64,000 nucleotides of DNA from a virus. Both the position numbers and the translations under genes were made by a program. The DNA lies in the IMG/VR virus record IMGVR_UViG_3300034072_002212, positions 94,417 through 158,416 of that record. One strand, written 5' to 3'. The notes beneath the pieces were generated by a model. That model was not told the origin of the DNA, ran no database searches, and worked only from the letters and a program-made list of their open reading frames with translations. This document shows positions 2,843 to 33,797 of the stretch, piece by piece. The first letter of the stretch is position 1; each line of letters opens with the position of its first letter.

Positions 2843-3237
2843 AAGGTCAGCCTAAACATCAACGCATCGTTGATGTCCTTAAATGTCCAATTGATATAGC
2901 AGCGCGCATCCGCACCTAGGTGTGGAACTTCAAGCGTGAATGCCCAAGAGTCTTTGATGTTAAGATCAATCCAGTTGAGACATTCTTCAAACACCTGAGC
3001 AAAGGTGTTCTCCGTGACGCTCATATCCATGGAGACTTTGTGCTCATGCTCTTCATCCACAAAGTGGAGAAAACGTCCATCCATAAGATGGATTTCATTG
3101 GCTTGAACAGGGCAAAGCGGAATGCTGTAGATGACTTGCTCAGTTGGATAGAGCGTGGATATCACATCCACTTCAAGTCTCGGACCACCGGGAAGGTGGC
3201 AAGCAACTACCTTCTGGTAGCGTCTATTCGGCACCAC
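2839..3237 (-). CDS. small protein with recurring C-terminal motif, unknown function
   Basis: 132 residues from GTG at 3237; no ATG is available near the start, and the start overlaps the preceding gene by 14 bases, implying translational coupling. The C terminus reads WTFKDINDALMFRLTF. This pattern (aromatic-x-D/E-x-x-D-A-x-x-F-K/R-L) recurs at the C termini of the proteins at 6573 and 11455 and, more loosely, those at 43691, 53631 and 54298. Function unknown. Confidence 0.6.
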   Translation of the reverse strand: MVPNRRYQKVVACHLPGGPRLEVDVISTLYPTEQVIYSIPLCPVQANEIHLMDGRFLHFVDEEHEHKVSMDMSVTENTFAQVFEECLNWIDLNIKDSWAFTLEVPHLGADARCYINWTFKDINDALMFRLTF

Positions 3238-3832
3238 TTGGAGTATTCTCCAGCATGAGGTTCATCTGAGTCACGACCACGTGAGCGTAGGAGACCGCGT
3301 GGGCCTTCTTGAAGCCGTACAGGCTCTCATCACCTGGTGTCCAGATCTCTTTCTTGATGTCTTCCCACTCTTGACCAATGAGGTGCTTCTTGCGTGGACG
3401 AATCAACGCCAAGAAGATCGCAATGTCCATAATGCTCCTGGGCTTGTAGGCACTCAAGAGATCGCTTGTTGGAATGCCGTCGATGACACCACCAAGCTGG
3501 AACAACTGTTCAGTGATCAGAGGCTCATCCAAGAGTTCCCACATGGGTTCGCGGGAGATCAGCTCTTGGAGATGTGCTTCGTCCCTTACTCCCTTGTAGA
3601 TGTGGAGGTTGAGGAAGTCCAGCTTGAAGTAGCCGCGTTCCTCTGCCTCTTCATAGGGAATGCTCGCAAAGCCTGTAAGGGGGTCTGTGGGAATGGACTG
3701 TAGGTAAACGCCCACATTGTGCTTGCGAAGGTCATCGCGCTCTACGCGGCTCGCAGGGATATGTAGAATCCCTTTGAGAGCCTCGTCACGATTTGCGAAG
3801 TCAATGTCGACGTCTGGAACAAACTTACCCAT
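3224..3832 (-). CDS. miniature DNA polymerase III alpha-like (C-family) protein
   Basis: 202 residues aligning with separated pieces of the palm/thumb of bacterial DNA polymerase III alpha (over 1100 residues in E. coli). PDVDIDF at 6-12 matches PDFDVDF, which holds catalytic D401 and D403; RKHNVGV at 36-42 matches GKHAGGV; FKLDFLNL at 69-76 matches KFDFLGL with D555; LFQLGG at 110-115 matches VFQLES; ALIRP at 142-146 matches ALFRP; YGFKKAHAVSYA at 172-183 matches YGFNKSHSAAYA. All three palm aspartates are kept, but the PHP, fingers, beta-binding and OB domains are missing, and 62 rather than about 150 residues separate D9 and D72. Homology is clear; activity is not. It could be a mini polymerase, a nucleotidyltransferase or a decoy. 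Confidence 0.8.
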   Translation of the reverse strand: MGKFVPDVDIDFANRDEALKGILHIPASRVERDDLRKHNVGVYLQSIPTDPLTGFASIPYEEAEERGYFKLDFLNLHIYKGVRDEAHLQELISREPMWELLDEPLITEQLFQLGGVIDGIPTSDLLSAYKPRSIMDIAIFLALIRPRKKHLIGQEWEDIKKEIWTPGDESLYGFKKAHAVSYAHVVVTQMNLMLENTPSGAE

Positions 3833-3854
3833 ACGACCAGCTTAAAGAAACTGG

Positions 3855-4205
3855 TTAGCGGGCGTCAATTTTGTTAGCCAATTCTCGCTCGATTTCGCGC
3901 AGCTTGTCCATGATGCGGTTGTTGGCTTTGATCAAACGCTGTTGCTTGGTTTCAAGTTCACGGATCTTGTTGCGCGCTTCCTTGAGCTGTGTCTCCATCT
4001 GAGTCACATACTCAGCCTTGGGAAACGTGTGATATTCCCCATCAATCTCAATCGTCTTGGTGTGGCTGTTCTGAGCCTTAAGACCACCAATCACGCGACT
4101 AGCCATCTTGTCCTTGGACACTGGCGCAGTCGCGGGCTTGGCTGTCTTATTGTCGCGGTAAAGCGGACCGCCATACATCGAGTTGTAGAAGTTATCGTCG
4201 TCCAT
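3855..4205 (-). CDS. coiled-coil protein, unknown function
   Basis: 116 residues, ATG at 4205. The N-terminal 50 residues are low in secondary-structure signal; from about residue 65 to the end is a strongly charged heptad region (METQLKEARNKIRELETKQQ) that should form a coiled coil. It lies in a tight run of minus-strand genes between the polymerase-like gene and the gene at 4214 (gap 8 bases). No family recognised. Confidence 0.6.
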   Translation of the reverse strand: MDDDNFYNSMYGGPLYRDNKTAKPATAPVSKDKMASRVIGGLKAQNSHTKTIEIDGEYHTFPKAEYVTQMETQLKEARNKIRELETKQQRLIKANNRIMDKLREIERELANKIDAR

Positions 4206-4213
4206 GCTTCTAC

Positions 4214-4549
4214 TTATCGGTTGTAGGTGAAGTCTTTCTCAACCAGTGAGGTCTGGCCGTAACGATAACGACCCTTACTCATAAGGTGGATCAACTTTTC
4301 GCCGCCGCTCATATCGTCCATGGCATCCCAATCGATACCAAACTTTGCGTAGGCATCAGCGTCACAGAGTTTGACCTGCATGGCAAGTTTCTGGAGTGCG
4401 GCATCACGCTCTTGGACAGCAAGATCCAAGACAGCCATTGCGGTGTCGTAGGCCGCAAGCGCGCTGGCATAGAACTCGTTGCCAGAACTACGAGCAAAGT
4501 CTGCGATATCAGTCTGGTTAGCGTCGAGGTTGCGCTTGGTCAGCTTCAC
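4214..4549 (-). CDS. helical protein, unknown function
   Basis: 111 residues from GTG at 4549; GGAGA lies 6-7 bases upstream inside the end of the preceding gene, and the two genes overlap by 4 bases. The middle (YDTAMAVLDLAVQERDAALQ) is a long helix. The opening (LTKRNLDANQTDIADFARSS) is polar. No domain recognised. Coupled translation suggests it works with the collagen-like protein upstream. Confidence 0.55.
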   Translation of the reverse strand: MKLTKRNLDANQTDIADFARSSGNEFYASALAAYDTAMAVLDLAVQERDAALQKLAMQVKLCDADAYAKFGIDWDAMDDMSGGEKLIHLMSKGRYRYGQTSLVEKDFTYNR

Positions 4550-26128: not shown

Positions 26129-26713
26129 TTACAGGCGGTTACCTGGGATCATCTCAGGCAGAGTGGTCATCAGACCATTTGCTAGAGTTGCGTTGTCGTA
26201 GCGAACGGTCAGCGTGATGGTCTGGAAGCCAGACTCACTGTAGTCGAGTTCGCTGTAGGTAACGTCCTGCAGGAAGCAACCTTCGAGGGTCCAGGTCTCA
26301 ACAACAGTGTCGTTGCCGCCGTCCATGGTCTCGATGATGGTCACAAACTTGTAGTTGATACCAGCTGCGAAAGCAGTCTGCTCAAAGTGGTTGAGCTGCT
26401 TCTGAAGCTGATGGCCAACGAGCTTGCTGACGTTGTTGGTCAGGTCGTCCTTGAGCTCGATCTCGATGGTGTTCCACGAGTGCTTACCGGCATAGTAAGC
26501 GACCGAGTTGTAGGAATCGACCTTGACCTCTTCGTGCGAGATCTTTGGCTTCGAAGCGCGCTGGACCTGCTGGGTGAAGTCGAGACCACCAGCGATTGGG
26601 CCGAAGTTGACCACGCGGACGCGGAAGCGATACTTATACTTGAGCTGGAGCAGACCACCACGGCCTTGGCCGCCGCCTAGTGGAACGCCGAATTTGGAGA
26701 GTGTCTCTGCCAT
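26129..26713 (-). CDS. 19: tail tube protein (gp19)
   Basis: 194 residues (T4 gp19: 163). Hexamers stack into the inner tail tube. Typical phrases: YKYRFRVRVVNFGP, then RASKPKISHEEVKVDSYNS, WNTIEIELKDD, and the last strand GFQTITLTVRYDNA. ATG at 26713 with GGAGG about 7 bases upstream; TAAATA box 33 bases upstream. Sheath (31357) is separated from it by the Ro60/RNA block, unlike T4 where 18 and 19 adjoin. Confidence 0.88.
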   Translation of the reverse strand: MAETLSKFGVPLGGGQGRGGLLQLKYKYRFRVRVVNFGPIAGGLDFTQQVQRASKPKISHEEVKVDSYNSVAYYAGKHSWNTIEIELKDDLTNNVSKLVGHQLQKQLNHFEQTAFAAGINYKFVTIIETMDGGNDTVVETWTLEGCFLQDVTYSELDYSESGFQTITLTVRYDNATLANGLMTTLPEMIPGNRL

Positions 26714-26806: not shown

Positions 26807-27511
26807 ATGAATCGCTTCTTTGTTTACGCGCTAGTGGATCCAAGAAACCAGCAGCCCTTCTACATCGGTAAGGGGTGCGGAGAGCGCCCAAAGAAGCATC
26901 TCACAGAGACGCTAGAGCAGACCGACAACGTGAGGAAATTCTACAAGATCCAAGCTTTGCGAGAAGCCGGAGTTGAGCCGACAATCTTGAAGCTCAAGGA
27001 GGATCTCAGTGAAGTTGAAGCATTCCAGTTTGAGGAAGAGCAAATCCGTTACTATGGACGGAAAGGTCTAGAACCAGACGGTATCCTCACGAACCTTGTG
27101 TTCGACAATCAGCCACCAAGCCGTATCGGACGAAAGCATTCTGAGGCCACAAAGCTGAAGATCAGCCAGTCCATGACTGGTAAGCCGAAGTCGTCAGAAC
27201 ACCGCGCTAACATCGGTGCAGCCAAAGCTGGAGAGAATAGCCCACATTGGGGCCAGCCGGTTCCGGAGGAACGCAAAGCAAAGATCCGTCAGGGAAACTT
27301 AGGGAAAAAGCGTTCAGAGGATGTTCGTCGGAACATGGCCCAAGCCCACGCGGTCAAATATGAGGTGATCAGTCCGGAGGGGAAGAGAAGGATCTTAGAC
27401 AGCCTCATGCTACAGAAGCTCTGTGATAGCATGGGGCTGAATAAGACGTCCTTCACAAACTCTTGTAGGGCAGGACGCACCTACAAGGGGTGGGGTATCA
27501 AGCGGCTTTAG
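26807..27511 (+). CDS. free-standing GIY-YIG homing endonuclease
   Basis: 234 residues on the plus strand, against the direction of all neighbours. GIY-YIG core FVYALVDPRNQQPFYIGKG at 4-22, catalytic Arg/Glu region (FQFEEEQIRYYG), then NUMOD3-type motifs (HSEATKLKISQSMTGKPKSS and RSEDVRRNMAQAH) and a C-terminal NUMOD1-like segment (LQKLCDSMGLNKTSFTNSC). A TATAAGTA sequence lies at 26794-26801 and AGGAG just before the ATG. Its stop overlaps that of the convergent gene at 27508. A second, different copy of this enzyme class is at 16528. Confidence 0.9.
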   Translation: MNRFFVYALVDPRNQQPFYIGKGCGERPKKHLTETLEQTDNVRKFYKIQALREAGVEPTILKLKEDLSEVEAFQFEEEQIRYYGRKGLEPDGILTNLVFDNQPPSRIGRKHSEATKLKISQSMTGKPKSSEHRANIGAAKAGENSPHWGQPVPEERKAKIRQGNLGKKRSEDVRRNMAQAHAVKYEVISPEGKRRILDSLMLQKLCDSMGLNKTSFTNSCRAGRTYKGWGIKRL

Positions 27512-28235: not shown

Positions 28236-29975
28236 TTACTTCGCGAAGAAGTCCGACATGATCTGCGGAGCAGCCGTGTCGAAACCAACAACGTCCATCA
28301 TACCGCTGTCCTTGGGATCAGCGATGGTCACGTTCGTTGCGGTCATACCAACCACAGCCGACTTCGCGGGGATGCCGGTCTTCTGGCGGTATGCCTTCAG
28401 CGCCTGCGAGGGTGCCTGACGACCCGCATAAGTCTCATTGTCGGTGTAAACCGCAAAGGACTCGACGGGCAGCTTGCGCTCCAGGGCCCACTCGAAGGGC
28501 AGCGAACAATCGGTCGAACCGAAGGGCAGACCGCTGATCGTCTTGATCACGTCGTCCAGCCGCTGACGCGGGCTGATCTTCAGGATCGAAACAGGACCAG
28601 CGTCCACGACGTTGGAGTTCTTCGTGCCGCTCGAACCCCAACCGTAGCCGCCGGAGCGACCACCGGTGAAGCCGATGAATTCGTAAGAGCTCTCAACGTT
28701 CGCCGTGATCAGAGCCATCGCAGCCGAAGCAACGCGAGGGTTCAGACCAGGGATGCCTGCGATGTCGCCCGAGCCCATGGAGCCCGAAACGTCCAGCGCC
28801 AGCAGCGTGTTCTTGCCCGTGGGCGTCACGTTGCCGAACGAACCGTAGAACGCCTGATCCAGTGCGTCGGTAACGCGACCGGTAGGAGTCCAGGTCAGGC
28901 TACCCTTGACACCGCGGCCCTGACCATAGGTCCGGAGCGCAGCGAGGATCGCGATCGGGTGAACGCGAGCCCGGCGGATAGCGTCGGAGTCCGACAGCTT
29001 GCTGATGACTAGCTTCTCGGCCGCCGACATGGAAGTCAGCAGACCAACGCTGGACATCTTGCCCAGGTTGCGGATCATCGCCGTCAGAGGCATGTTGGTC
29101 AGCAGAGCCTCCCAGACCTTGGCATCATTCAGGAACTGAGTGGGGATCGCCTCACGGGGGAGGTTGTGATCCTGGATCAGCTTGATGATGTCCTTGGCCG
29201 AAGTTGCCTGCTTCGCCGCCTCGAAAGCGAGGATCTGCGGGTGGAGGATCGTCGAAGCGTCCTGGCGTGCCAGGCGAACCTCGTCCTCGAGAACTGCAGA
29301 GCCACGGACATAGTCCGAAGCGCCGACCGCGCTCATACCGCCGACCATCCAGCGCAGAACTGCGTCACGTGCCGCGTCGTCCGACTTGGGGTGACCCAGA
29401 CGGAGCATGTCGCGGTGCGACCAGCCATCGCGCTGCTGATATTTGATTGCCTGGTTGGCCAGACGATCCAGCGGCATCTCGAGATACCAGTTGCCCACCG
29501 CGCGACGGAGCGCACGACCCCAACCGCGAACACCATCGACGAACGCAGCGAAGTGGAACAGGTGGGTGCCGATACGCGCGACCTTGGGCAGCGCAGCCAG
29601 AGCAGCCTTGCGGGTTGCCTCACTGTCAGCCGCCGAAGCGAGTGCCAGCACGAACAGCGCAGGGTCGTTCTTGGGAGCGCGACCAGCATCGCTGATCTCG
29701 ACCACACGGTTGACCACACGGACACCGTCCTCGGCGATCAGACGCAGAACGTTCTGAGCCGCAGCCTTGGTCAGTTCCTTCTCACCCACATAGTAGGTGC
29801 CGCCCTCGGTGCCGAGGATCAGGAACCGGTCCAGCTGGTCCCACGGGGAGACGACGAAGCTGAAGCCGCCGGCGTTGTTCTTGGTCATCTCCGCCTCGCG
29901 GCCGGGGATTGCCTGGGTTTGTGGGGTCTGGTTGGGCAGAATTGCGCCCATGAGAGTCTTGGTCGACTTCGACAT
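28236..29975 (-). CDS. rsr: Ro60/TROVE-domain RNA-binding protein (Rsr-like)
   Basis: 579 residues (bacterial Rsr about 530). Ro60 rings bind misfolded RNA ends and noncoding Y RNAs and can gate RNA to exonucleases. N-terminal TROVE signature: QTPQTQAIPGREAEM, NNAGGFSFVV, LDRFLILGTEGGTYYV, then HEAT-like helices. C-terminal von Willebrand A domain with the metal-site DVSGSMG near 410 and later TDCSLPF. ATG at 29975 is preferred over an upstream frame because GGAGG stands 8 bases before it. GC content looks higher than in neighbours, suggesting transfer. Upstream on the same strand are a small gene and the large structured RNA. Confidence 0.9.
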   Translation of the reverse strand: MSKSTKTLMGAILPNQTPQTQAIPGREAEMTKNNAGGFSFVVSPWDQLDRFLILGTEGGTYYVGEKELTKAAAQNVLRLIAEDGVRVVNRVVEISDAGRAPKNDPALFVLALASAADSEATRKAALAALPKVARIGTHLFHFAAFVDGVRGWGRALRRAVGNWYLEMPLDRLANQAIKYQQRDGWSHRDMLRLGHPKSDDAARDAVLRWMVGGMSAVGASDYVRGSAVLEDEVRLARQDASTILHPQILAFEAAKQATSAKDIIKLIQDHNLPREAIPTQFLNDAKVWEALLTNMPLTAMIRNLGKMSSVGLLTSMSAAEKLVISKLSDSDAIRRARVHPIAILAALRTYGQGRGVKGSLTWTPTGRVTDALDQAFYGSFGNVTPTGKNTLLALDVSGSMGSGDIAGIPGLNPRVASAAMALITANVESSYEFIGFTGGRSGGYGWGSSGTKNSNVVDAGPVSILKISPRQRLDDVIKTISGLPFGSTDCSLPFEWALERKLPVESFAVYTDNETYAGRQAPSQALKAYRQKTGIPAKSAVVGMTATNVTIADPKDSGMMDVVGFDTAAPQIMSDFFAK

Positions 29976-29995
29976 ATTGACTTCCTCCATTTTCG

Positions 29996-30014
29996 GCTCG
30001 TGAAACCCACGAGC
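29996..30014 (-). promoter_or_regulatory. hairpin in the leader of the Ro60-like gene
   Basis: GCTCGTG (29996-30002) and CACGAGC (30008-30014), 7-base stem, 5-base loop. A second short one (GGTCC 30021-30025 with GGACC 30035-30039) is next to it. They occupy the 89-base gap before the ribosome site. Confidence 0.45.
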
Positions 30015-30064
30015 AAGGTTGGTCCCTGACATTAGGACCGGATCAGTCTCGATCTGAAGCTCTG

Positions 30065-30361
30065 TTAGAGCGGCAAACGACTTTCGTCAAGTGCCTTTTT
30101 CAGAGCTGACAAGGTTTCTTCCGGAGAAGAAAAAGTCTTGTTCATATGAACCGGCTTGCTGATCATCACGTGGATCATGTTCTCTCCGAAGAATCGAATG
30201 AGACCAAAACCCTCGAAGCGACCGTTGCCGGGCTTGCGGTTGTTCCAACGAGTGCGCCACGCCTTGTTGACGTTGTGCTCGTAATTGCTTTCGACGCCCA
30301 GCAGATCTGCGACGTCCTGGTAGAACTTCTCTTCTACCGACACAGTTTCGTTTTCCATCAT
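30065..30361 (-). CDS. small protein, unknown function, between RNA and Ro60 genes
   Basis: 98 residues from ATG at 30361 (ATG at 30358 equally possible). Reads as a small alpha/beta protein: acidic start (MMENETVSVEEKFYQDVAD), a basic centre (KAWRTRWNNRKPGNGRF), strand-like GLIRFFGENMIHVMIS, and a final helix. No family recognised. A promoter ends almost at the start codon, so the mRNA may be leaderless. Lying between the structured RNA and the Ro60 gene, it could be an RNA-binding partner; that is inference. Confidence 0.55.
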   Translation of the reverse strand: MMENETVSVEEKFYQDVADLLGVESNYEHNVNKAWRTRWNNRKPGNGRFEGFGLIRFFGENMIHVMISKPVHMNKTFSSPEETLSALKKALDESRLPL

Positions 30362-30365
30362 TCCT

Positions 30366-30394
30366 ATTTAAGCACAGGAATGGGAAAACGTCAA
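30366..30394 (-). promoter_or_regulatory. promoter with -35 and TAAATA -10
   Basis: Minus strand TTGACG (30389-30394), 17-base spacer, TTAAAT(A) (30366-30371). It combines the sigma70-like -35 with the late-type TAAATA box, and points at the gene starting at 30361. Confidence 0.5.
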
Positions 30395-30397
30395 CCC

Positions 30398-31240
30398 AAA
30401 AAGAATGGGGTGGAGGGCTGGGCGAACCATACCCTCCGGGTTATTCCCATATAGGGAATTGGTTGAGATTGGTCTGGACCGAGATCCAGCGCCCTACTTT
30501 GCGTCATCAACAACGTAGCACTTTGAGCTCAAGGCTCGAGAGCAAGTGTGAAGGTGGACCGGGCTAGACTATCATGATAGAGATCATGATACCTATATCT
30601 CCCTAGGCAGGCCGAAGCCTGTTTCCACGTTGTTGAGTCAGCGTTTTCGGGTCTTCTCTATTTGTCATAGATAACCCACCAACATCGGCTCTTCGATCTG
30701 TTGACACTTGCCCCTGAAGTGTCAGTAAGTCTCCGGAGACCGGAGTCTCCGGAGGGGCGAGTAGGCTAGGTCTGTCCAGCACCAACCCGCGGGGCTCAAT
30801 TGAGTGGTTCGACTTGGCCCACTCGACCTAGGGAGACTATGCCTTTCATCTCCCGGCGCAGCAAGGGGTGAATTTCCGCTAGGCCCCCATTGTTTCCGAT
30901 CCAGGTAGCTAAGGAGGGACCAAAACCTGGGACTTATGACCGAAGCCAGCCCACCCTCTTTATTCGTTCCTTCCGGTTTTGGCTAGCCGGCGGAACTACT
31001 TACCCGACCCACAAATGCCTAGGGCGGGGCGAGGGGTGATCCTTCCCTCGACAAAGCTACCTTGGAGGGTTTCCCCTCAGATCACTAGAGACCCTGTTAA
31101 GGACCTCGTTGCACTTCATCCGGTCAATTCCGGATCTCTTGTCCTCCCCCGGCGCCACCCGGGCGATACCTTTATGTGTCAGCACACATCCCAGTCACCA
31201 AGAACAAGATATATGGGTTCAAGGGCCGAAGCCCCTCAGT
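30398..31240 (-). ncRNA. large (~840 nt) structured noncoding RNA candidate
   Basis: No supportable gene lies between 30362 and 31356. On the minus strand this stretch packs many helices. Hairpins with UNCG loops on that strand: 31223-31234, 30937-30948, 30731-30754 (10-base stem), 30608-30621. GNRA loop: 31065-31078 (GAAA). Others: 31174-31189, 31118-31135, 31030-31050, 30966-30996, 30901-30930, 30802-30824, 30702-30724, 30657-30671, 30570-30591 (9-base stem), 30443-30459. Long-range pairs: 31087-31094 with 31132-31139, and 30766-30772 with 30825-30831. A TAAATA box precedes it and a hairpin (30412-30437) plus TTTTT ends it. Size and phage setting resemble GOLLD and ROOL RNAs; identity is untested. 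Strand is set by the loop types. Confidence 0.7.
30412..30437 (-). terminator. 3' hairpin of the structured RNA
   Basis: GGAGGG (30412-30417) and CCCTCC (30432-30437) form a stem; the minus strand continues with ACCCCATTC and TTTTT (30398-30402). Confidence 0.5.
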
Positions 31241-31245
31241 GCCTG

Positions 31246-31251
31246 TATTTA
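31246..31251 (-). promoter_or_regulatory. late promoter box TAAATA for the structured RNA
   Basis: Minus strand CTTAAATACAGG, so RNA would start near 31239. The box is embedded in a short AT-rich inverted repeat (31244-31261). Confidence 0.5.
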
Positions 31252-31317
31252 AGGAAATACACAAAAAATGGGCTCAAAGCAACCTTTTTCTGCAGATTTT
31301 CTCACCAGTCATGGAAA

Positions 31318-31341
31318 TGGGCCGACATTTCTGCCGACCCA
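31318..31341 (-). terminator. terminator hairpin after the sheath gene
   Basis: TGGGCCGACA (31318-31327) and TGCCGACCCA (31332-31341), 10 pairs including two G-U on the minus strand, loop GAAA, then TTTCC. The flanking CATTTCCATGACTG repeats after the terminator at 28200. Confidence 0.75.
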
Positions 31342-31356
31342 CTCCCTTTGTGTGCC

Positions 31357-33759
31357 TTACTGGAACAGCGCGCCGAGGTCGTCGCCGGTTGCCACAATAC
31401 GGACTGGAATGTAGATGAACTCAATCGCCTGAACTGGCTGGATCGCAATGTCCACCCACAGTTCGTGACGGTCGATACGCTCTGGAGTGTTGTTGGACTC
31501 GTCGCAGACCACGATGAAGTCGTAGAGACCGCGCAGACCAACAAGGTCAGCCAGGAAGCGTTCGAAGGTCGTCTTGACCGAGTCACGAGTCTGGAAGTCG
31601 TTTGGCTCGAAGAGGAATGGCTTCGAGATGTTATCCAGATTGTAACGCAGGTAGTTGACCAGACGCGCCACGTTGATACGATCCAGCGAGGTATCGAGGT
31701 TGTGACGGGTCTTCTGACCATACACGACCAGACCGCGGTTTGGAATGTATGCGATTGGGTTGATCTTGTTGCTGTAGAGGAGGTCACGCTGACCGTTGTT
31801 CAGCATTGCTGCCTTGAACTCACCCTGGTCATCCAGGTAACCCACGCTAGAAGCGTTGGTGACCAGACCACGAGTGAAACCAGCTGGAGCCATCCACTGA
31901 TAGCTAACAGAGTCGTTGTAAGCGAGGGTGCGGAGTGCGATGGTCGATGGTGGGACCATGATCTCGTTACCGTCGACGTTGGTGCTCAGACCCCATGGGT
32001 AATACATACCCACGTATGGGTTGAAAGTGCTGACGCCTGCCTCACTGTTGCCGTTCGAAGAGTTGGTTGCGAACTTCTGGATTTCAGCACCAGTTGGCTT
32101 CAGACGGGCTGGGGTGTCGCCGACGATGAAAGCAACTTCCTTCATGTCGGTGTTCAGGGTCACCATCTCGTCGATGAGCTCGATGTAACCAGGAGCAGCC
32201 AGCAGGTTGAAGTAAACGGTCTCTGCGCGAATGTCTTCGTTGCTCGAGATCGTGCCAGCGAGTGCCTTGACGATCATCTGACGCTGCGCCTTGCGGCCGA
32301 AGAATGGAACGCCGCTGAGCTGGTAGCCCGAAACGTTCACCCACGAACCGTTGGTGTACTGCTTGACGTCGTTGGTCGAAGCAGCGAGGTCGAACAGCTT
32401 CATACCTTCTGCGTAGTTGACTGCCGAGGTAGAAACTGCCTCACCAAAGGCAATGCCGTCGATTGGGTCGATGTTGTTCTCGACGTTGATCGCCTTCCAA
32501 GCATTGTTGGTGCGACGATACATCTTTGGATAGTTCTCGAGATCCGAAGTGTCCACCCAGAGGTCATTCTCAACCAGCGGAGCGCCAGTGCTCTGAGTGG
32601 TTGGAGCCGAACCAAGTAGGATCACGCCGTTTGCGTCAGTTGCTGGGTAAACCGAACGGTATGCAACCCACTGACCACCCTGGCTGATCTTGACGTTCAC
32701 CGAGAGGTTCTGGTTGTTATACCACAGGGTGCCTTCCTCTGGATCGCTGGTTGGCTCTGCGGAACCAGCCTGCTCACCGAGGTTAACCCAGTTGCTGCCG
32801 TCGAACTTGCGGAAGTTGAAGACCGCACGAGTGTCCTCATGACGCAGGTAAACCGAACCGGTGACCTGTGCCAGAGTGGTTTCACGCTGCTGGCTGTAGA
32901 TTGGAACCAGAGTCTGATCCCAAGCGCCAGTTGCGACGTTGAAGGTCTTCAGCAGCCAAGTTGCTGCCGCAGAGATCGAGGTCACAACGTCTGGAGTGTG
33001 GAGGATCAGAACGCTACCAACTGCGCCGTTCGCTGGGCGGTAGGTGTTGTAGGTCAGGTTCAGGTCAGCCGAAGCACCTGCCGCAACCTTTGCGTTCTTC
33101 CATTCGGAAGTGCCGACAACCTGCCAAGTGCCGTCAACCATCTGGTAGAGGACCTTGGTCTGAGTCAGAACCACCATAGCGAAGTCGCCCTCGACCGCAC
33201 CAGCAATCAGAGGAACTGGAACGCCAGAGATGATCTCAGCAGCTTCAGTGTCAATGGAGTCTTCGTCTTCAACGACCCAGAGATCGCGCTCAGCCCACTC
33301 GCTGCCAGTGTACTCGTAGATGCCCCAGGTGTTGTTCTGAGTGTCGAGCCAGTTGGTGCCGTGAGCAGCTTCAGCACGTGGCGCAGTTGCGCGTGGCATC
33401 AGCTGAGCATAGTCGATCGCTGCGCGAATGACGAACGCGCGGTTAGCAATACCAAGATACTGGTATGCCGCATGGAGACCGAACTCGTTGAGTTCGTAAC
33501 CGTGAACAGCAGAGCCGTTCTTGGTGTAGAAAATTGGGTTGCCGAACGTCTGGAGGAGCTCGCGCTGGCTCGTGATTGGGTAGAGCTTGTTCGCGTTCTC
33601 AGGAAGGGTGCCCTCAGCAACACCGCTACCACTTGGCAGCGACTTGTATTCGTGCGTGCCGATGATGATCAGCGGAACAGTGCCTTCACCAGCCGTTGCG
33701 TAGTTGGATTCGTCGGTTACGGTAACAGAAGTACCGGGCGACACTAGAGGATAAACCAT
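31357..33759 (-). CDS. 18: tail sheath protein (gp18)
   Basis: 800 residues, longer than T4 gp18 (659). Forms the contractile sheath. N-terminal VYPLVSPGTSVTVTDESNYA and LLQTFGNPIFYTKNGSAVHG, and the C-terminal core (NPIAYIPNRGLVVYGQKTRH, SLDRINVARLVNYLRYNL, WVDIAIQPVQAIEFIYIPVR) are typical sheath sequences. The region about 150-500, with repeated phrases such as GTLWYNNQNLSV and NDLWVDTSDLENYPKMYRRT, looks like inserted surface domains. ATG at 33759 is chosen because AAGGGG stands about 9 bases upstream; TAAATA box 39 bases upstream. Confidence 0.92.
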   Translation of the reverse strand: MVYPLVSPGTSVTVTDESNYATAGEGTVPLIIIGTHEYKSLPSGSGVAEGTLPENANKLYPITSQRELLQTFGNPIFYTKNGSAVHGYELNEFGLHAAYQYLGIANRAFVIRAAIDYAQLMPRATAPRAEAAHGTNWLDTQNNTWGIYEYTGSEWAERDLWVVEDEDSIDTEAAEIISGVPVPLIAGAVEGDFAMVVLTQTKVLYQMVDGTWQVVGTSEWKNAKVAAGASADLNLTYNTYRPANGAVGSVLILHTPDVVTSISAAATWLLKTFNVATGAWDQTLVPIYSQQRETTLAQVTGSVYLRHEDTRAVFNFRKFDGSNWVNLGEQAGSAEPTSDPEEGTLWYNNQNLSVNVKISQGGQWVAYRSVYPATDANGVILLGSAPTTQSTGAPLVENDLWVDTSDLENYPKMYRRTNNAWKAINVENNIDPIDGIAFGEAVSTSAVNYAEGMKLFDLAASTNDVKQYTNGSWVNVSGYQLSGVPFFGRKAQRQMIVKALAGTISSNEDIRAETVYFNLLAAPGYIELIDEMVTLNTDMKEVAFIVGDTPARLKPTGAEIQKFATNSSNGNSEAGVSTFNPYVGMYYPWGLSTNVDGNEIMVPPSTIALRTLAYNDSVSYQWMAPAGFTRGLVTNASSVGYLDDQGEFKAAMLNNGQRDLLYSNKINPIAYIPNRGLVVYGQKTRHNLDTSLDRINVARLVNYLRYNLDNISKPFLFEPNDFQTRDSVKTTFERFLADLVGLRGLYDFIVVCDESNNTPERIDRHELWVDIAIQPVQAIEFIYIPVRIVATGDDLGALFQ

Positions 33760-33797
33760 AAACCAGCCCCTTTGCAATCGGTGGATTTCGTTACCAG

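Follow-up and report, generated by a model that had tools for sequence, protein, structure and literature searches.

A large structured RNA of a jumbo phage shares a pseudoknotted core with compact phage RNAs

The locus and its putative transcription signals

The window analyzed here is a stretch of 64,000 nucleotides (positions 94,417 to 158,416) of the IMG/VR record IMGVR_UViG_3300034072_002212, a virus record of 181.8 kb. Based on the list of open reading frames and on family searches, it contains a gene-free kilobase between two minus-strand genes, the tail sheath gene (31,357–33,777, minus strand; Pfam PF17482, PHROG 10581), upstream of the RNA described here, and the gene of a 98-aa protein (30,065–30,361, minus strand), downstream of it, which has no Pfam or PHROG match and whose encoding stretch finds matches in several homologous loci. 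Next come a Ro60 gene with TROVE and vWA domains (28,236–30,032, minus strand; PF05731, E 2.6e-43; PF25045, E 8.7e-52) and the tail tube gene (26,129–26,713, minus strand; PHROG 4542); a GIY-YIG/NUMOD3 homing endonuclease is encoded on the plus strand at 26,807–27,511, amid the minus-strand tail genes. The preliminary description of this DNA had called the kilobase gene-free, and this holds: no credible gene lies between the 98-aa ORF (ending at 30,361) and the sheath gene (starting at 31,357), and a search for a conserved reading frame, named there among the findings that would speak against an RNA, yielded no ORF of the interval that recurs across homologues. Instead, the interval harbors a non-coding RNA gene of ~840 nt (30,405–31,245, minus strand), as indicated by homologous DNA in the corresponding position of 9 IMG/VR loci and by 201 consensus pairs in 5 full-length homologues; judged from the sequence, its 5' end would lie near 31,245 and its 3' end just past 30,412.

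Upstream of the RNA, the homologues carry TTGnnn-17-TATAnn at a nearly constant distance (L058, L061, L059, L083, L052, and L136), with a spacer of 15 nt in L055/L056, and when single sites were compared with shuffles, L136 alone beat them (11/12). The matching position in the window is occupied by TTGCTT-17-TATTTC (31,254–31,282, minus strand), which is better placed as a promoter than the "TAAATA box" first proposed but is itself weak and not significant alone. No terminator was called, and none is conserved, in the window RNA and its homologues; of the hairpin and TTTTT first described on the 3' side, the terminal hairpin (30,412–30,437) is real and covaries, whereas the TTTTT is not conserved and was not called as an intrinsic terminator. 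These promoter and terminator observations are suggestive only. The 98-aa gene is itself preceded by a promoter-like TTGACG-17-TTAAAT, read directly from the sequence (30,366–30,394, minus strand), suggesting that the RNA is not simply the leader of that gene. An annotated 81-aa protein of Sinorhizobium phage Phosso (XYS97552.1; L052, 5938–6183) may be spurious, with its gene possibly overlapping the RNA in the 3' part.

A family with a pseudoknotted core

A query with the sheath protein retrieved 50 IMG/VR loci, in 9 of which the window RNA aligns with the DNA after the sheath gene at 68–75% identity. Among these homologues, the 5' part is strikingly constant and the remainder varies in length, the gap measuring ~480 nt in L009/L012, 680 nt in L007/L008, and 940 nt in L003–L005. 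A 19-base search pattern drawn from the constant stretch, TGAACCCATA-N6..20-GTGACTGGG, matched 42 IMG/VR stretches versus 2 in 84,980 cellular genomes, neither of the latter with a significant model match, and the RNA family therefore appears to be restricted to phages. With a looser pattern, 84 IMG/VR stretches were obtained, and ~80 contigs with the core were retained once false positives had been removed; because some bases are set by the discovery pattern, their constancy partly reflects how the members were found, whereas the helices are unaffected. The false positives removed by inspection were L159, L176, and L177, which have no model match, and L091, L092, L093, L102, L112, L123, L125, and L126, of which L091, L102, L125, and L126 were run against the model without a significant match (L125, E 0.68).

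The covariance model, R1, was built from 7 sequences (alignment A3); the MAFFT alignments A1 and A2 were kept out of it because the 3' strand of helix P2 was misaligned. Run against 100 loci totaling 1.03 Mb, R1 returned 64 matches, with E values down to 6e-21 and all three genomic contexts (see below) covered, and it matched the 181.8-kb record once only, at the window core (31,137–31,222, minus strand; 74.1 bits, E 1.3e-15). More generally, 17 of 17 contigs carry one significant copy of the core each. Among 11 named phages searched whole, Phosso was the sole positive (E 4.4e-10, core at 288,298–288,387 of PV764938.1); R1 had no match in T4, ICP1, Atu_ph07, PA5oct, Paride, PBECO4, Munch, XbC2, or CBB and reached a chance-level score in GAP32 (E 0.36), PA5oct, Paride, PBECO4, Munch, XbC2, CBB, and GAP32 being sheath relatives. 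Searches of named phages by blastn with compact cores and by tblastn with the class-B polymerase returned nothing.

The core spans ~90 nt and forms the 5' part of the RNA in the window (31,137–31,236). It is composed, in this order, of the P0 hairpin, UGAACNYAUA, the 5' strand of P2, YGACURNG, P4, UAANGRUA, P5, and the 3' strand of P2, and it is pseudoknotted by pairing of the RNG of YGACURNG with the CNY of UGAACNYAUA across P2. In the window (all on the minus strand), P0 is GGGGC-UUCG-GCCCU (31,221–31,236), precedes UGAACCC and has compensated pairs in alignment A5; the pseudoknot is formed by CCC in UGAACCCAUA (31,215–31,217) and GGG in GUGACUGGG (31,190–31,192); P2 (31,137–31,209; 31,200–31,209 with 31,137–31,146) crosses the pseudoknot and encloses both P4, the hairpin UGUGUGCUGACACA followed by the conserved UAAAGGUA (31,174–31,189), and P5, often with UGGC in its loop (31,148–31,163). 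Covariation is seen in P2 and, across 61 cores, in P4 and P5. The constant unpaired bases are UGAAC, UAA, GGUGACU, and UAANGRUA. The window thus combines the features by which the new family is recognized, namely the core sequence, the nested helices P2, P4, and P5 (74.1 bits), and the CCC/GGG pseudoknot. Family members range from ~120 nt in compact forms, where a long stem, P1, with as many as 20 bp closes the core (significant in 27 of 70), to giant forms such as the ~840-nt RNA of the window, jumbo-phage members having several hundred extra nucleotides after P2.

Some smaller observations concern the ends and loops of family members. The idea of a tRNA-like RNA with a CCA end was rejected, as the ...CACCAUA of members in tRNA arrays is the 3' arm of P1 (UAUGGUG/CACCAUA, UAUGGCG/CGCCAUA); T-arm-like hairpins in L129 and L181 are a loose lead for tRNA-likeness. 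By eye, the P0 loop UGCUCA is complementary to the P6 loop UGAGCA in tRNA-array members (L131, L148, L158, and L170), with UGCC/GGCG as the counterpart in L144, a possible kissing interaction.

Over the 61 distinct cores, 92.1% of base-pair cells are paired compared with 48.8% after shuffling, 509 cells compared with 158 are changed on both sides, and the covariation score is 1.06 compared with 0.23 (at most 0.14 in slid controls), although the core alignment was fitted to the scored helices, which flatters these statistics. The 7 modelled pairs of P2 are 98.4% paired, with all pair types and two-sided change at every pair, and in the raw sequences P2 is complementary with unrelated sequence in member after member. 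The pseudoknot, which is absent from R1, is 100% paired in 61 sequences, one pair comprising 59 CG and 2 UA and another 34 CG and 27 UA. The search pattern had forced its pair 1, limited pair 3 to Y-R, and left pair 2 free; at pair 3, C-A and U-G were permitted by the pattern yet are absent among model-supported members. A scan designed with R-Y at pair 3 recovered two new model-positive members with swapped pairs, L212 (G-C) and L209 (A-U), whereas a control scan with mismatching Y-Y gave none (0/12).

The minus strand of the window RNA folds at -342.2 kcal/mol (z -2.70, 0 of 20 shuffles as good), so that the dense folding noticed at the outset does surpass that of shuffled sequence. The plus strand folds nearly as well (-327.1 kcal/mol, z -2.20, 1 of 20 shuffles as good), and single-sequence folding alone therefore leaves the strand unsettled; it is conservation that fixes it, since helix P2 contains 39 G-U pairs against 7 non-pairs in the 61 cores, identifying the minus strand of the window as the functional one.

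The giant form and its genomic settings

With RNAalifold, 62 of the 201 pairs of the five jumbo-phage homologues show two-sided compensation. Giant forms retain the core at their 5' end. After it come, on the minus strand of the window, the P6 hairpin CCGG-AAUUGA-CCGG (31,118–31,135), with compensated pairs in the jumbo homologues, and, in the RNAalifold structure of the five homologues, the hairpin H7 GAGGUCC...GGGUCUC (31,088–31,107), a large middle domain with GGUAGNUU/AACUACC as its closing pairs (30,901–31,064), and a 3' domain for which CCC/GGG and ACAACGUGG/CUACGUUGU provide the closure (30,492–30,651). A 3'-domain module, GAUCGAAGAGCCGA-N8-GGGUUAUC (30,668–30,699, minus strand), is also present in L002, L003, L005, and L010 and, four times, in an RNA-like region of L066 (see below). 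The terminal hairpin mentioned above is GGAGGG/CCCUCC in the window and GUCGGG/CCCGAC or GCCGGG/CCCGGC in homologues. The large structured non-coding RNA proposed from the window alone is thus strongly supported by homologues and covariation, relatives having been found in which pairs covary over the whole RNA, and it lies on the minus strand as proposed. Individual elements fared unevenly. The UNCG loops read on the minus strand are present, and those at 30,940–30,945 and 30,612–30,617 are largely kept, whereas the remaining ones are swapped for other loops in homologues. A long-range helix between 30,766–30,772 and 30,825–30,831 is partly kept. The other one proposed, between 31,087–31,094 and 31,132–31,139, was dropped as it is not conserved, with 8 of 8 pairs in the window and merely 3–5 of 8 in homologues; its arms are parts of other conserved helices, H7 and P6/P2.

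The family occurs in three contexts, and homology between them, as read from the sequences, runs through the core only. In jumbo myophages (the window, L015, L017, L095, L098, L106, L114, L119, and Phosso), the RNA lies in the interval from the tail sheath gene to the tail tube gene, where additional genes are sometimes found. In smaller phages (L096, L100, L101, L103, L104, L115, L121, and L124), it is found between a ParB-like and a DNA-polymerase-like gene, both named from their translations rather than by family search. Other members (L128, L129, L131/L172, L141, L142, L148, L163, and L170) reside inside phage tRNA arrays, where an adjacent reading frame is often absent. Other RNAs were seen near some of these cores: the tRNA array of L144, which also holds a compact core, includes a permuted tmRNA (899–1278; RF04321, 116 bits), ARAGORN marked a tmRNA in L163, and L110 has, at 3400–3695, a class A RNase P RNA (185 bits) together with a tRNA, ~1.3 kb from a compact core.

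A Ro60 gene next to the RNA, as first described, is true of the window but does not extend to the family. A TROVE protein is encoded in 8 of 21 RNA-bearing contigs; Ro60 is next door in the clade of the window and ~160 kb away in the 607-kb contig of L114, and it was not found in RNA-bearing contigs of 561, 415, 198, and 153 kb, which can be fragments. Agrobacterium phage Atu_ph07, in turn, has Ro60 at the corresponding place and lacks the RNA. Together, these data indicate that the adjacency characterizes a single clade of jumbo phages. A group I intron (89.1 bits) lies near a close Ro60 relative in L054 (3625–3842). In the distant relative L066, a 296-kb phage, a second gene-free, RNA-like region of ~1.5 kb (2980–4540) adjoins Ro60; it contains a wcaG RNA (RF01761, 56.2 bits, E 4e-9), which is unrelated to the core and was not detected in the window. 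The GATCG..GCCGA..GGTTATC module, single in the window RNA, occurs four times in this region.

Relation to known RNAs and possible roles

The stable RNAs C and D of T4, ~120–140 nt long and located in the phage tRNA cluster, resemble compact members in size and setting but have no UGAAC..GACU core, and R1 has no match in T4. GOLLD assembles into a 14-mer RNA cage. It is described as a large phage RNA of unknown function that is often found in tRNA arrays, can exceed 800 nt, and has a universally conserved 3' region (PMC12286853). ROOL, an RNA of phages and prophages near tRNA islands, has several pseudoknots and likewise no known function (PMC12286853). Abundant non-coding RNA of ~800 nt, also with no known function, comes from a 1-kb gene-free gap of the lytic myophage ICP1 (PMC7567579), and a large RNA of similar size and setting, with no known function, has been reported in phage K (PMC9241854). 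The window RNA is like that of ICP1 in size and in its gene-free gap in a myophage, but R1 finds nothing in ICP1; neither this RNA nor those of T4 were retained as homologues. Using cmscan with all 4227 families of Rfam 15, including the YrlA model RF02553, we found no family that matches the RNA, and none of GOLLD, ROOL, OLE, Y RNA, or YrlA in the window at the gathering score; down to E 10, positions 30,000–31,700 gave merely two chance matches to microRNA models, far below cut-offs, and the homologues matched none of GOLLD, ROOL, YrlA, and Y RNA. By this test, membership in the Y RNA, GOLLD, ROOL, and OLE families was rejected, GOLLD and ROOL being the RNAs to which a likeness was first noted. 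Literature searches did not find a description of the family; "undescribed" is provisional, large lists of unnamed candidates such as PMC8040213 lying outside the comparison.

Our analyses establish the homology, structure, and strand of this RNA, its three contexts, and its single copy per genome, and it follows from the sequence evidence that a structured RNA is encoded on the minus strand. With moderate confidence, we interpret the region as a jumbo-myophage non-coding RNA gene, the giant form of a phage-restricted, undescribed family, whose product would be a stable, trans-acting RNA in lytic infection. It would be transcribed during lytic infection, probably from its own promoter, and action in trans is its likeliest role, since members precede different genes or sit among tRNA genes. 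The invariant core, with its constant unpaired bases, may be the recognition site for a partner (protein, ribosome, or another RNA copy), and the added domains of the giant forms may serve as a scaffold.

Several alternatives bear on this interpretation. The core might be a cis-acting leader (riboswitch, translational operator, or antitermination RNA) of the next gene, as the compact RNA lies directly upstream of the start codon of the polymerase-like gene in smaller phages and a pseudoknot with invariant unpaired bases would suit ligand or polymerase binding; this we consider doubtful, because the downstream genes differ (98-aa gene, tail tube, polymerase-like gene, tRNAs), tRNA arrays often offer no adjacent reading frame, the downstream gene in the clade of the window appears to have its own promoter, and 840 nt is an unusual size for a leader. 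The compact pseudoknotted fold and the many invariant unpaired bases would also be in line with the core being a new catalytic RNA, for instance a self-cleaving ribozyme, and several small ribozyme classes are found in phages, but the single copy per genome, the mixed contexts, and the persistence of the core at the 5' end of giant forms make this unlikely.

Homology to GOLLD or ROOL is already disfavored, and a divergent RNA of that type, forming RNA-only cages, seems quite improbable. Size, phage location, and the tRNA arrays of relatives fit the description of both RNAs (PMC12286853), ROOL sharing a pseudoknot as well, and a palindromic hairpin stem at ~30,732–30,754 could aid self-association; on the other hand, Rfam gives no match even when E values up to 10 are admitted, members have a core at the 5' end in common as opposed to the conserved 3' region of GOLLD, compact relatives of ~120 nt exist, and, in contrast to ROOL, the family has another core and is, by the pattern scan, all but missing from cellular genomes. 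That the RNA is a Y RNA, the partner of the neighboring Ro60 protein, is suggested by Ro60 adjoining it in the clade of the window and lying near it in L066, and is very improbable given that neither YrlA nor any Rfam Y RNA family matches and that Ro60 is so often absent from RNA-bearing contigs or, in Atu_ph07, present without the RNA. An origin, a packaging site, or another DNA element, or else an unrecognized coding region, would account for a gene-free region, and inverted repeats form in DNA too; the strand-specific G-U pairs of P2 and the lack of a recurring reading frame leave this scarcely credible.

Beyond the trans-acting RNA favored here, a less probable reading is that the family is a categorically new phage RNA class in which the 90-nt core works in its own right, by catalysis, by binding a ligand, or by recruiting phage or host machinery. 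Unrelated large phages would have reused this core, and jumbo phages would have enlarged it into an RNA particle of ~840 nt. GOLLD, ROOL, and similar RNAs have no known function, one reason being their size, which makes them difficult to dissect. The existence of compact and giant forms with clear covariation, kept in unrelated phages, makes the function of the core separable experimentally from that of the added domains, and Phosso, a cultured carrier, provides a direct experimental route.
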